Shown: piece by piece, positions 7,912 to 64,000 of the stretch | Position numbering within the stretch: the stretch's first letter is position 1 | Layout: every line of letters starts with the position of its first letter | Source: Sphingobacterium sp. PCS056 | GTDB taxonomy: Bacteria; Bacteroidota; Bacteroidia; Sphingobacteriales; Sphingobacteriaceae | DNA length: 64,000 nucleotides | Assembly: GCF_023273895.1 (NCBI RefSeq) | Contig: NZ_CP096883.1 | Coordinates: forward strand, 992,001 to 1,056,000 | Reading direction: 5' to 3' | Position numbers and translations under genes: made by a program | The notes under the pieces: generated by a model | Told to the model about the DNA's origin: nothing | The model's input: only the letters and a program-made list of their open reading frames with translations | The model's database searches: none

Positions 7912-8361
7912 CTAGTGCTCTTCTGTTATGTCTAAGTTTAATTGTTTTTCTTTATTAATTAAACTCGCAACACTCGTATCGTTTAGTATTTGTAGCATCG
8001 CATTACGGACTTCGACAAAAGTATCCCGTATACCACAAGCATGTTCTGTAGTACATTCATCACACGAACGGTAAAAATTAAGACTCACACAAGGTAATAA
8101 AGCAATAGGGCCATCAATCAACCGCATCACCTGTGATAGATAAACATCTTCAGGTGCTTTATTCAGACTGTATCCACCGCCTGCGCCTTTCTTGCTATAT
8201 AAAATTCCTGCATTACGCATTTCTAACAATATCTGTTCTAAAAATTTCTTCGGAATATTTTCTTCCTCCGCAATTTTTACGATCTGCATCGGATCTTTTC
8301 CGTAGTTCCTACCTAAAACCATTAAGGCTTTAATTGCATATTTTGTCTTTTTAGAAAGCAT
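7912..8361 (-). CDS. Rrf2 family transcriptional regulator
   Basis: 149 residues with the Rrf2 winged helix at the N-terminus (KTKYAIKALMVLG; recognition region KKFLEQILLEMRNAGIL; wing with KGAGGGYSL). Four cysteines sit in the sensor region: C91, C100, C103 and C109 (C-x8-C-x2-C-x5-C). In IscR, NsrR and RsrR, cysteines there hold an iron-sulfur cluster, so this protein may sense iron-sulfur status or a redox/nitrosative signal. The spacing differs from the IscR pattern (C-x5-C-x5-C), so it should not be named iscR. It stands alone and its promoter lies within large inverted repeats, so autoregulation is likely. Confidence 0.87.
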   Translation of the reverse strand: MLSKKTKYAIKALMVLGRNYGKDPMQIVKIAEEENIPKKFLEQILLEMRNAGILYSKKGAGGGYSLNKAPEDVYLSQVMRLIDGPIALLPCVSLNFYRSCDECTTEHACGIRDTFVEVRNAMLQILNDTSVASLINKEKQLNLDITEEH

Positions 8362-8383
8362 ACTCTTAAATCAAATTTATCTA

Positions 8384-8413
8384 CAAACTTAGATAAATTT
8401 GTTCTATTTGCAA
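8384..8413 (-). promoter_or_regulatory. Promoter of the Rrf2 gene, overlapping a shared 18-bp motif
   Basis: On the minus strand a TTG (8411-8413) and a -7 box TAAGTTTG (8384-8391) are separated by 19 nt, matching the Bacteroidota TTTG-N19/20-TAnnTTTG pattern. The -7 box is part of the 18-mer CAAATTTATCTAAGTTTG (8384-8401), found again upstream of xseA and the amidase gene. A further half copy abuts it at 8372-8383. Confidence 0.6.
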
Positions 8414-8440
8414 TTTTAATTGCAAATAGAACAAATTTAT
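8393..8440. repeat. Perfect 48-bp inverted repeat at the Rrf2 promoter
   Basis: The arms 8393-8415 and 8418-8440 are exact reverse complements (23 bp each) around a 2-nt centre (TT). The repeat covers the -33 region of the Rrf2 promoter. It could be an operator, or a cruciform or terminator of upstream transcription, although neither side has a long T-tract. Confidence 0.8.
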
Positions 8441-8461
8441 TCGTTTGAGTGTTTTTTATCG

Positions 8462-8494
8462 GTGTCTGATGATTGTTTTTCAATTATCAGACAC
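8462..8494. terminator. Hairpin downstream of the phosphatase gene
   Basis: GTGTCTGAT at 8462-8470 pairs with ATCAGACAC at 8486-8494, with a further 4-bp inner stem after one mismatch and a 5-nt loop. It lies between the end of the minus-strand phosphatase gene and the Rrf2 promoter. A weak T-tract makes the terminator call tentative. Confidence 0.45.
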
Positions 8495-8567
8495 GGTTTG
8501 CTATTAATAAATATCGTGTAGCAGAACTTTAATAAATGCTATTTACCATATAGCACTAGAAGCAGTA

Positions 8568-38531: not shown

Positions 38532-38741
38532 GTGTTTAATAAGGGTTTATATGTAAATGTACAAATAAAAGCTATACAATCATGCACAAAAACGCACAAG
38601 TAACCATAATATTCAATTATGACCGATTTTGATCCACTGCAATCATTAAAGATAGAAAAGAGCTTTACAAGCAGCATAGTATATTTTAAAGCTATTAAAA
38701 TGGTCGGAAAATGAAATCTATGATATTTCACACGATTATAA

Positions 38742-38772
38742 TTGGATACAAATGCAAATTTATCTAAGTTTG
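38742..38772 (+). promoter_or_regulatory. Promoter of xseA containing the shared 18-bp motif
   Basis: TTG (38742-38744), 20 nt, then TAAGTTTG (38765-38772), which lies only 4 nt before the xseA ATG at 38777. The 18-mer CAAATTTATCTAAGTTTG (38755-38772) is identical to the copies at the Rrf2 and amidase promoters. Confidence 0.55.
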
Positions 38773-38776
38773 ATTT

Positions 38777-40045
38777 ATGCCAGAGGTCGTAGAAAACAGA
38801 ACCATTTTTTCCTTATTGGAAGTAACTCGAAGCATTCAAAAAACTATTGCTGAACGCTATAAGAGTTTGTATTGGATCAAAGCGGAGATGAACAAATTGA
38901 ATCATTACTCCCATTCTGGGCACTGTTATCCCGAATTAGTCGAAAAAACCGAAGGAAAGATCGTAGCTGAGATTCGTTCCATCCTATGGAAAGCAGATTA
39001 TCAAAGAATCAACAACCATTTCCTTAAGATAGCTCAAGAACCTTTGCGTGAAGGAATTACCATGTTATTCCAAGCGAGTATCTCCTACGATCCTATGTAC
39101 GGTTTGAGTCTTAGGATTGTAGATATTGATCCGACCTTTACTTTAGGAGAGCTGGAAAAAGAAAAATTAAACAGTATCAATAAACTGAAGCAAGAAGGTA
39201 TTTTTGATGCAAATAAAAACCTTCCTTTTCCTACACTACCCAAGCGATTAGCTATTATTTCGGTAGAAACCAGCAAAGGATTATCCGATTTTTACAAAAT
39301 TATTAATCAAAATCCTTGGGGATATAAAATTGAGCAAACACTTTATCCGGCATTATTGCAAGGAGATAAATCAGTTCCTTCAATCATCCGGCAGCTGTCC
39401 ATCATTGCAGAACGCTCAGAAGCTTACGATGCAGTAGCAATTATCCGCGGTGGTGGCGGAGAAGTAGGCTTATCAAGTTACAACAACTACCTATTGGCAA
39501 AAGCTATTGCCATTTTCCCACTACCTATATTAACTGGTATTGGACACTCCACCAACCTTACAGTAAGTGAAATGGTCGCCTATAAAAATGCGATCACACC
39601 AAGTGAACTCGCAGATTTCCTAATCCAAAAATTTCATAATTTCGCCATTCCCTTAGATCAATTGACAGCACGAATATTGCAAAATACAACTGCGATATTT
39701 AAAGATGAAAATGAAAAATTAAAAGCCTTTGCCTCAACCATTAAATGGTCTGTCCAGCAATCTATAAGACAATCAAAAATTGATTTGACTGCCTTTGAAA
39801 AAGATATTAAAACAAATTTAACCTACATCTTCCGTCAGAAATATACGACGCTCGATCATCTTGAAAAAATTATCCAGCTCGCAGATCCTATTCGACTGCT
39901 CCAAAAAGGATTTTCAATCACCAAAGTCAATGGAGAACTGTTGGTATCTGTAGATCAAATCAATGAGAATGATGTACTCACAACTCAAGTCTGGGATGGT
40001 GAGGTGAGCAGCATCACACAAAAAATCAATAAAAATGGAAAATAA
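38777..40045 (+). CDS. xseA: Exodeoxyribonuclease VII large subunit
   Basis: 422 residues with an N-terminal OB-fold (about 5-105) and the XseA catalytic region that includes P-x-x-L-P-K-R-L-A-I-I-S (about 155-166), AIIRGGGGEVGLSSYNN and TGIGHSTNLTVSEMVAYKNAITPSELA. With XseB it degrades single-stranded DNA. The start is fixed by homology, because the next ATG would remove part of the OB-fold; a -7 box ends only 4 nt upstream, suggesting a leaderless transcript. xseB overlaps its 3' end by 11 nt. Confidence 0.93.
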   Translation: MPEVVENRTIFSLLEVTRSIQKTIAERYKSLYWIKAEMNKLNHYSHSGHCYPELVEKTEGKIVAEIRSILWKADYQRINNHFLKIAQEPLREGITMLFQASISYDPMYGLSLRIVDIDPTFTLGELEKEKLNSINKLKQEGIFDANKNLPFPTLPKRLAIISVETSKGLSDFYKIINQNPWGYKIEQTLYPALLQGDKSVPSIIRQLSIIAERSEAYDAVAIIRGGGGEVGLSSYNNYLLAKAIAIFPLPILTGIGHSTNLTVSEMVAYKNAITPSELADFLIQKFHNFAIPLDQLTARILQNTTAIFKDENEKLKAFASTIKWSVQQSIRQSKIDLTAFEKDIKTNLTYIFRQKYTTLDHLEKIIQLADPIRLLQKGFSITKVNGELLVSVDQINENDVLTTQVWDGEVSSITQKINKNGK

Positions 40046-62907: not shown

Positions 62908-62943
62908 AAACAATATAGGCTCCGAATGGAGCCTATATTGTTT
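62908..62943. terminator. Bidirectional terminator between the 61576 gene and the amidase gene
   Basis: A 16-bp stem (62908-62923 with 62928-62943, loop GAAT) lies between convergent stop codons, 15 nt after the + gene and touching the stop of the minus-strand gene. A- and T-rich arms support both directions. Confidence 0.85.
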
Positions 62944-63778
62944 ATAAGAACTTTTTGTAGATCGAATATAAGATCTTCAGATCGTTATCCTTCAAGATGG
63001 CTACATTGGCATTACTCTGAATATAATGCTGTTTAAAAGCTTTTATCGCTGCATCTAAATTTTTAACATCATAACCAATAATTCTTAATGCCAATTTTGG
63101 ATTGAAATCTATCGGCGGAGTCTCCAGATATTCATCGTACCAATAACCAAAACCTTTATCTGCTAACGTTTTCCAAGGAAAGCGTGAAGGGTCATTTTTT
63201 CGGGTAGGCGCCAAATCCATATGGCCAATGAAATTTGCCTGTGGAATATTGTATTTCACCTTCAGATATGACAATAATTCCGTCAGTGCATTGATCTGGG
63301 CATCAGTCCAGGGATCGGTGGTTCCATTATTATCTAATTCAATACCAATAGAAGAAGAATTCAGATCCGTATCATTTCCCCACTTGCCTATACCCGCATG
63401 ATGCGCACGGTAATAATCATTGACCATCTGCACGACTTTACCAGTACGACCAACGACATAGTGCGCACTGACACCCGCTTTCTCAGAGTGAAAAGTACGT
63501 ATCGTCTGTCCCAATGAATCCTGAGCCGTATGATGGATGACCACATAGTTTGGTTTGCGCATCCCAAAGTTTATGGATGCGATCCATTCTTTTTCAACGG
63601 ATATCGGCAATTTACCAATAGCTTGGTTGGTGACTGGAGTAGTAGCATATTCTTTGGCAAGGATCTTTGCTTTTTTCTTATAGACTTTTTCAGTAGCCGC
63701 GTATTTACCTGTCGAACAGGAAGCAAATAGTGCTGTTATTACTAGAAAGGTTATTGTTGCTTTTATTTTCATTTTCAA
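62942..63778 (-). CDS. Lipoprotein N-acetylmuramoyl-L-alanine amidase (Amidase_2)
   Basis: 278 residues with a lipobox ending at Cys21 (LFASC). The Amidase_2 (PGRP-like) domain spans about 70-205, with zinc-site elements in V-V-I-H82-H83-T, the Glu in IGIELDN (about 145-151), and GHMDLAPTRKNDPSRF (185-200). It cuts the amide between MurNAc and the stem peptide, as AmpD/AmiD do; the lipid anchor argues for a periplasmic, AmiD-like role in murein turnover. The promoter region contains the shared 18-bp motif. Confidence 0.9.
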   Translation of the reverse strand: MKMKIKATITFLVITALFASCSTGKYAATEKVYKKKAKILAKEYATTPVTNQAIGKLPISVEKEWIASINFGMRKPNYVVIHHTAQDSLGQTIRTFHSEKAGVSAHYVVGRTGKVVQMVNDYYRAHHAGIGKWGNDTDLNSSSIGIELDNNGTTDPWTDAQINALTELLSYLKVKYNIPQANFIGHMDLAPTRKNDPSRFPWKTLADKGFGYWYDEYLETPPIDFNPKLALRIIGYDVKNLDAAIKAFKQHYIQSNANVAILKDNDLKILYSIYKKFL

Positions 63779-63874: not shown

Positions 63875-63892
63875 CAAACTTAGATAAATTTG
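63875..63892 (-). promoter_or_regulatory. Shared 18-bp motif with -7 box upstream of the amidase gene
   Basis: Read on the minus strand this is CAAATTTATCTAAGTTTG, identical to the motif at the Rrf2 and xseA promoters, with the -7 box TAAGTTTG at 63875-63882. The implied leader is about 90 nt. No TTG at the right -33 distance was found here. Confidence 0.45.
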
Positions 63893-64000
63893 TTTTAAAC
63901 AGTTATTAAATAACAGAAAATATCTTTTTAAATTTTACAGCGATATCCCCTTAGATACTCCACTGTTACCATATGCCTGCTGCATCAGTAAAATTTTATA

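Follow-up and report, generated by a model that had tools for sequence, protein, structure and literature searches.

A shared 18-bp promoter motif of Sphingobacterium is very probably the right end of a miniature mobile element that inserts within -7 boxes

Introduction

Small, non-coding DNA elements that carry promoters have been described in several bacteria. The CREE of Neisseria are present in many copies of two size classes, 104-108 and 153-157 bp, and, according to the reports describing them, their promoters drive adjacent genes and their presence or absence varies by strain (PMC2649163, PMC10969869). In the Bacteroidota, the BrickBuilt MITE of Porphyromonas is described as a non-autonomous element carrying promoter sequences (PMC4596501), and the bacterial MITEs MITEAba12 and QMITE1 as carrying sigma-70-like promoters (PMC10969869). 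Each CREE lies between inverted Correia repeats; the target, in most cases TA, is duplicated on insertion, and some copies interrupt coding sequences. For mobile promoters, the usual course is random landing followed by retention through selection. The promoters recognized by sigma-A in the Bacteroidota consist of a -33 TTG and a -7 box with the consensus TAnnTTTG (PMC7366714).

Here, we analyzed a stretch of 64,000 nucleotides from Sphingobacterium sp. PCS056 (hereafter the window), in which an earlier note had pointed out identical copies of an 18-bp near-palindrome, CAAATTTATCTAAGTTTG, at three promoters and had suggested either a shared operator, possibly bound by an Rrf2 protein, or a strong extended promoter class. 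Our comparisons suggest instead a mobile element, for which CREE is the nearest analogue: both are small, mobile and promoter-bearing and occur in two size classes. Unlike CREE, the element described here has the -7 promoter box as its target and a fixed orientation, and its insertion reconstitutes the box. Its right end, TTG-N19/20-TAAGTTT followed by a G of the target, has the same layout as a sigma-A promoter; ordinary sigma-A promoters, unlike this element, are immobile and have neither a left-end hairpin nor a covarying palindrome.

Results

The 18-mer was found in the window in exactly the three copies claimed, at 8384-8401 (minus strand), 38755-38772 (plus strand) and 63875-63892 (minus strand), and a scan allowing up to 3 mismatches added no fourth. 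Shuffled windows held 0.18 matches on average and reached three matches in 0 of 100 cases, in agreement with the earlier note's view that the recurrence at three promoters exceeds chance. The identities that it had given to the downstream genes were likewise recovered by Pfam, as an Rrf2 family regulator (PF02082, E = 1e-36), the large subunit of exonuclease VII (PF02601) and an Amidase_2 protein (PF01510). The whole-genome search that it had recommended (5.2 Mb in one contig; genome G000 below) gave 20 exact copies, or 43 when up to 2 mismatches were allowed, whereas the reversed 18-mer used as a control had no match in the whole genome. Nearly all of these copies lie from a few to about 30 nt upstream of start codons and are oriented with the gene, and the genes are unrelated; reading of their proteins suggests that they are presumably msrA, serS, a bifunctional nuclease gene, ribH, murF, dcd, pgi, rsmA, pheT, prmC, pyrC, hisC, lpxB, alaS and others.

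Pattern searches and model searches together provided the census of copies, which share one layout. From 5' to 3', with a slash marking each junction with host DNA, it reads TAnnTTT/CCTC, a first hairpin, and a long palindrome with TTG-N19/20-TAAGTTT/G; on a finer scale, the hairpin CCTC...GAGG is followed by GAGA(T/C)CGATAA, by the palindrome GATAAATTnnn...nnnAATTTATC with the TTG inside it, and then by TAAGTTT. The 32 non-redundant full-length copies are short, lack a transposase gene and fall into two size classes of 94-103 nt (26 copies) and 129-149 nt (6 copies), the longer form having about 45 nt extra between GATCGATAA and GAATAAATTTG. Among these 32, the left junction is TAnnTTT/C[CT][TG]C, with a correctly spaced TA in 25 compared with a background of 7.2% (P = 6e-23), and the right junction is TAAGTTT/G in 29 and TAAGTTT/A in 3. 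Of the 76 non-redundant copies of all states, 59 have a TTG 19 or 20 nt upstream of the box, which is the Bacteroidota sigma-A layout; TTT is followed by G in 65 copies and by A in the other 11, and no strong preference is seen further on. Judged from these alignments, the junction falls inside a predicted Bacteroidota -7 promoter box, TAnnTTT/G.

TTT alone is common to both borders, as would be seen with either a duplication or a recombination core. The tips of the element, CCTCTATAAA and CTTAGATAAA, are alike at 8 of 10 positions (by eye), and long tip repeats are absent. Joining the ends gives CTAAG-TTT-CCTC, in which an imperfect inverted repeat surrounds TTT. Such an arrangement is compatible with a recombinase core as well as with short terminal repeats and a duplication of 3 bp.

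Because the long and short forms, both rich in AT, were poorly aligned by MAFFT, the whole-element model was built from sequence only, with training copies mainly from related genomes, and a cleaner alignment was used to test the palindrome. In the window, this model found the three 18-mer sites (E = 7e-10, 1.3e-4 and 4.9e-4) and no other convincing site except an opposite-strand reading of the rrf2 palindrome. At E <= 0.1, it gave about 37 matches in G000, 38 in G024, 28 in G005 and 11 in G067, a few of which are one palindrome read on both strands. Roughly nine of the matches in G000 reach the left end and the others comprise the right half only; we infer that the left end decays after insertion, whereas the right end is kept because it now serves as the promoter of the gene. 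In a family-wide sample of 121 genomes, the element was present in 23 genomes and 5 of 25 genera, with very clean copies in other genera of the family and several sampled genomes negative; in a class-wide sample of 295 genomes searched with stricter filters, G000 alone was matched. Viral contigs, scanned with a 16-mer, were set aside as a source: among the matches listed, there were only weak ones, which shared the searched letters.

In the window copies, the left end is mostly lost and the right-end promoter is retained, and their left borders are approximate because the copies have decayed. The copy upstream of the Rrf2 family regulator gene (7912-8361, minus strand) covers 8385-8497 on the minus strand (model match at 8385-8450, E = 7e-10), with an approximate left end and a left hairpin that has diverged from the CCTC/GAGG form. 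The 18-mer at 8384-8401 is its right end; the -7 box, TAAGTTTG, occupies 8391-8384, the last G (8384) being that of the target. Here, the 18-mer forms one end of a 48-bp palindrome at 8393-8440, which has two perfect 23-nt arms (8393-8415 and 8418-8440) and a 2-nt loop. The -33 TTG is at 8411-8413 (minus strand), 19 nt from the -7 box, and a hairpin, GTGTCTGAT...ATCAGACAC, at 8462-8494 stands where the left-end hairpin of the element belongs, as judged by its position relative to CGATAA...ACTCAAACGAATAAATTTG. At rrf2 only, an extra inverted arm, TAGATAAATTTG, follows the -7 box at 8372-8383 (minus strand).

At xseA (38777-40045, plus strand), the start codon lies 4 nt past the 18-mer at 38755-38772, which is the right end of a decayed copy spanning 38631-38771 on the plus strand (model match at 38649-38771) and contains the -7 box at 38765-38772, with the TTG at 38742-38744. 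Its left junction is placed near TTTTGATCC at 38627, give or take a few bases, with the help of orthologues that are empty in G004, G005 and G067 and filled in G000, G024 and G052. The third copy precedes the N-acetylmuramoyl-L-alanine amidase gene (62942-63778, minus strand) and covers 63876-64000 on the minus strand, its decayed left end lying at or slightly past the window end (match at 63876-63950 in the window and at genome positions 1055876-1055995). The 18-mer at 63875-63892 is again the right end, with the -7 box at 63882-63875, and there is no TTG at the usual distance from this box.

Orthologous promoters of 17 genes were compared in 6 genomes, with xseA traced genus-wide and the other 16 genes traced in five relatives by one chimeric protein query; 69 sites were filled and 22 empty, and 13 genes were polymorphic. 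At the rhodanese gene, the filled site of G004 (L192) and the empty site of G005 (L198) differ by a clean 101-bp insertion, with 0 mismatches over the 230 bp compared and a junction that is ambiguous within TTT only; these two genomes are closely related. The filled and empty sites, this insertion included, show the element to be mobile, as expected of a MITE. A similar element occupies the same place in G000 and G024, and thus, by parsimony, G005 most simply lost its copy precisely, a loss that could be explained by replication slippage from one TTT repeat to the other, across the palindrome, instead of by enzymatic excision. At rrf2, a comparison of L093 with L079 revealed a 95-bp insertion inside the -7 box, again ambiguous within TTT (cgtattttt/CCTC...TAGGTTT/gagg in L093 versus cgtatttttgagg in L079).

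Between the last -7 base and ATG, filled and empty sites are similar in sequence and usually differ little or not at all in length, whereas all upstream sequence differs. The lpxB promoter is identical at 28 of 28 positions downstream and has A in place of G after TTT in both filled and empty sites. In the empty site of G052 at the bifunctional nuclease gene, TTT lies 21 nt from ATG (by eye), matching the filled copies; the automatic classifier had chosen a wrong TTT upstream.

The palindrome within the 18-mer that the earlier note had described is real (14 of 18 positions self-complementary, by eye), but it is not the conserved symmetry, which is that of the long palindrome further upstream. 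Among 23 diverse copies of the latter, picked as clean (a choice that leans towards pairing), 87.9% of the cells pair, a share that is flattered because the structure, unlike the alignment of the arms, which was by sequence, was taken from one member, and two-sided changes, which are flattered less, occur in 11 of 21 pairs. None of 500 shuffles reached any of the five measures used, and all of the measures fell when the partner was slid by 1-3 columns. In an independent permutation test on 76 unselected copies, in which the right arm of each copy was set against the upstream DNA of all other copies, 0 of 5000 permutations were as high as the observed mean (12.3 versus 11.3 of 18). The compensatory changes thus indicate that the fold is kept and the letters are not. 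Such changes in the arms would be hard for a sequence-specific binding protein to accommodate, whereas they would be tolerated by a folded strand, a cruciform or template-switch quasi-palindrome correction.

In one pair of orthologous promoters, L293 (G024, C4) and L299 (G005), the arms have changed jointly (ATAATTTTG/CAAAATTA versus ATAAATTTG/CAAATTTA), which suggests either in-place correction or selection of pairing after insertion. Known structured RNA families were dropped from consideration, since in Rfam no family exceeded its gathering score at the elements; a single tRNA elsewhere in one locus did.

Discussion

We consider it very probable that a miniature mobile element without coding sequence inserts inside -7 boxes and thereby swaps promoters, and that the 18-mer is its right (3') end. 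At the level of DNA sequence, the comparisons establish insertion, with its target, boundaries and fixed orientation, the preserved distance to the start codon, a promoter-like layout, covariation in the palindrome, presence/absence polymorphism, and no duplication beyond TTT. In the pathway that we propose, the element would enter between TTT and G of a host TAnnTTT/G and split the native -7 box; the new -33 element and all but the last base of the new -7 box, seven bases, would come from the element, and that last base, G or sometimes A, from the target. The promoter would thus be swapped and the sequence from the target base to the start codon retained. Transcription from the element's own -33/-7 promoter would presumably then take over the gene, after which the left end would decay and the right end would stay as the promoter of the gene. 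The element may be mobilized in trans, its folded or palindromic ends being recognized by a transposase or recombinase.

Two explanations of the shared motif do without movement. That the 18-mer is the operator of a regulon, possibly bound by Rrf2, is very unlikely. Its evidence comes from the rrf2 promoter itself, where the third arm past the -7 box makes a 30-bp dyad, CAAATTTATCTAAGTTTGTAGATAAATTTG, and where all three arms have changed together in Sphingobacterium faecium, with CAATTTTATC replacing CAAATTTATC and the matching arm now GATAAAATTG; S. faecium DSM 11690 and Sphingobacterium sp. B16, in which the Rrf2 protein is 99% identical, are the closest named genomes. Against this, the copies precede housekeeping genes that are unrelated and have no common function, the empty orthologous sites are without the motif, and the arm letters vary provided that they pair, unlike a site for a sequence-specific protein. 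Moreover, a related motif precedes rrf2 in at most 4 of 80 relatives (L051, L052, L093 and L109), a fifth, weak match in L080 lying elsewhere in its locus; the lack of a common function and the absence from most rrf2 promoters led us to drop the Rrf2 regulon, and this half of the earlier note's alternative was left without support. Its other half, a strong extended promoter class, came close, in that the TTG is correctly spaced in most copies, the amidase copy being one without it. Taken as independent convergence of many genes on an extended strong consensus, without movement, it would account for the TTG-N19/20-TAAGTTTG layout of 59 of the 76 copies and for their proper orientation upstream of genes. 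Such convergence is contradicted by clean insertions of about 100 bp with empty orthologues; the conserved left end and hairpin about 100 nt upstream, the two discrete lengths, and a covarying palindrome that reaches past the promoter boxes also speak against it, and we regard it as, if anything, even more improbable than the operator.

If the element is mobile, as we propose, two kinds of enzyme can be considered. It is possible, although we say so with reserve, that the element is the cassette of a site-specific recombinase (tyrosine, IntDOT-like, or serine), a TAnnTTT circle with the junction CTAAGTTTCCTC recombining with a TAnnTTTG target. TAnnTTT is common to the left and right junctions with crossover confined to TTT, the joined ends form an imperfect inverted repeat around TTT with tips matching at 8 of 10 positions by eye, and loss in G005 was precise; in addition, the target core of CTnDOT, GTANNTTTGC, includes TANNTTTG, as does the target of this element. 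CTnDOT is, however, a large conjugative element, and no such integrase could be linked to these elements of about 100 bp: Xer-like recombinases are the only ones clearly common to the four genomes checked; the longer integrases vary among them, and element ends flank none of these longer ones. A conventional MITE is a comparably tentative proposal: a DDE transposase would move the element in trans, TTT would be a 3-bp duplication, the tips would be short, imperfect terminal repeats, and target preference and selection would produce the position and orientation at promoters. TTT at both borders, the similar tips, and a length, copy number and lack of coding sequence typical of MITEs would suit it; yet we found no parent insertion sequence, neither the TAnn of the target nor the structural covariation is typical, and none of the copies examined was reversed or away from promoters. 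A bolder reading, which may be right but which we offer as conjecture, is that a structure-recognizing recombinase places a folded element of about 100 nt into -7 boxes genome-wide, leaving the leader untouched and being reversible by precise excision; this would constitute a new class of mobile DNA that targets the core promoter.

The search for the enzyme removed two families. Like REP and other palindromes derived from IS200/IS605, the element is short and hairpin-forming and has no long target duplication; unlike them, it carries its first hairpin directly at the tip, which is not the case for IS200/IS605 ends, and PF01797 (Y1/HUH transposase) had no match in G000, G004, G005, G024 or G052. 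With Y1 transposases absent from the element-rich genomes checked, an IS200/IS605- or REP-type element was ruled out. PF01548 (IS110 DEDD transposase) had no match in G000 and one or two in four relatives, and the lack of a DEDD transposase in G000 excluded an IS110-type element. No element end adjoined any of the integrase, IS110 and Y1 loci examined, and there was no autonomous partner or solo left end among 18 within the loci examined. In the same genus, G011 and G032 have 19 and 12 matches to Y1 (IS200-like) transposases and lack the 18-mer, these transposases being unrelated to the element as far as seen.

In kind, this is a promoter-bearing MITE-like element; the enzyme and the dependence on structure are the part that could be categorically new. 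Insertion into a promoter box is not mentioned in the accessible descriptions of BrickBuilt, MITEAba12 and QMITE1, with which we compared the element by description only, and our search, confined to the open-access literature, brought up no account of mobile DNA for which the -7 box is the target and is rebuilt on insertion. Since insertion would land in the -7 box and rebuild it, even essential genes (serS, pheT, murF and lpxB) could be taken over and yet keep a promoter. The copies thereby provide, at dozens of genes in close species, natural promoter exchanges that can serve as a test bed for promoter replacement in evolution, and they point to an enzyme by which hairpin DNA may be integrated at a promoter sequence. 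They also advise caution, in that promoter motifs common to genes in these genera need not be operators.

Two individual promoters show further symmetry around the -7 box. At 8367-8406, a second dyad, CAAATTTATCTA-AGTTTG-TAGATAAATTTG, is centered on the rrf2 -7 box; of its arms, the downstream one falls beyond the element and, in S. faecium (L051 and L052), varies in step with the others, and this third arm (8372-8383) may be an independent autoregulatory dyad or a product of the same palindrome-correcting process. Upstream of a TetR-type regulator gene in G000 (L036), the palindrome (CAACTTAGATAAATTG...CAATTTATCTAAGTTTG) reaches, on either side, through the greater part of the -7 box, and this copy, judging by its symmetry, possibly fires in both directions.
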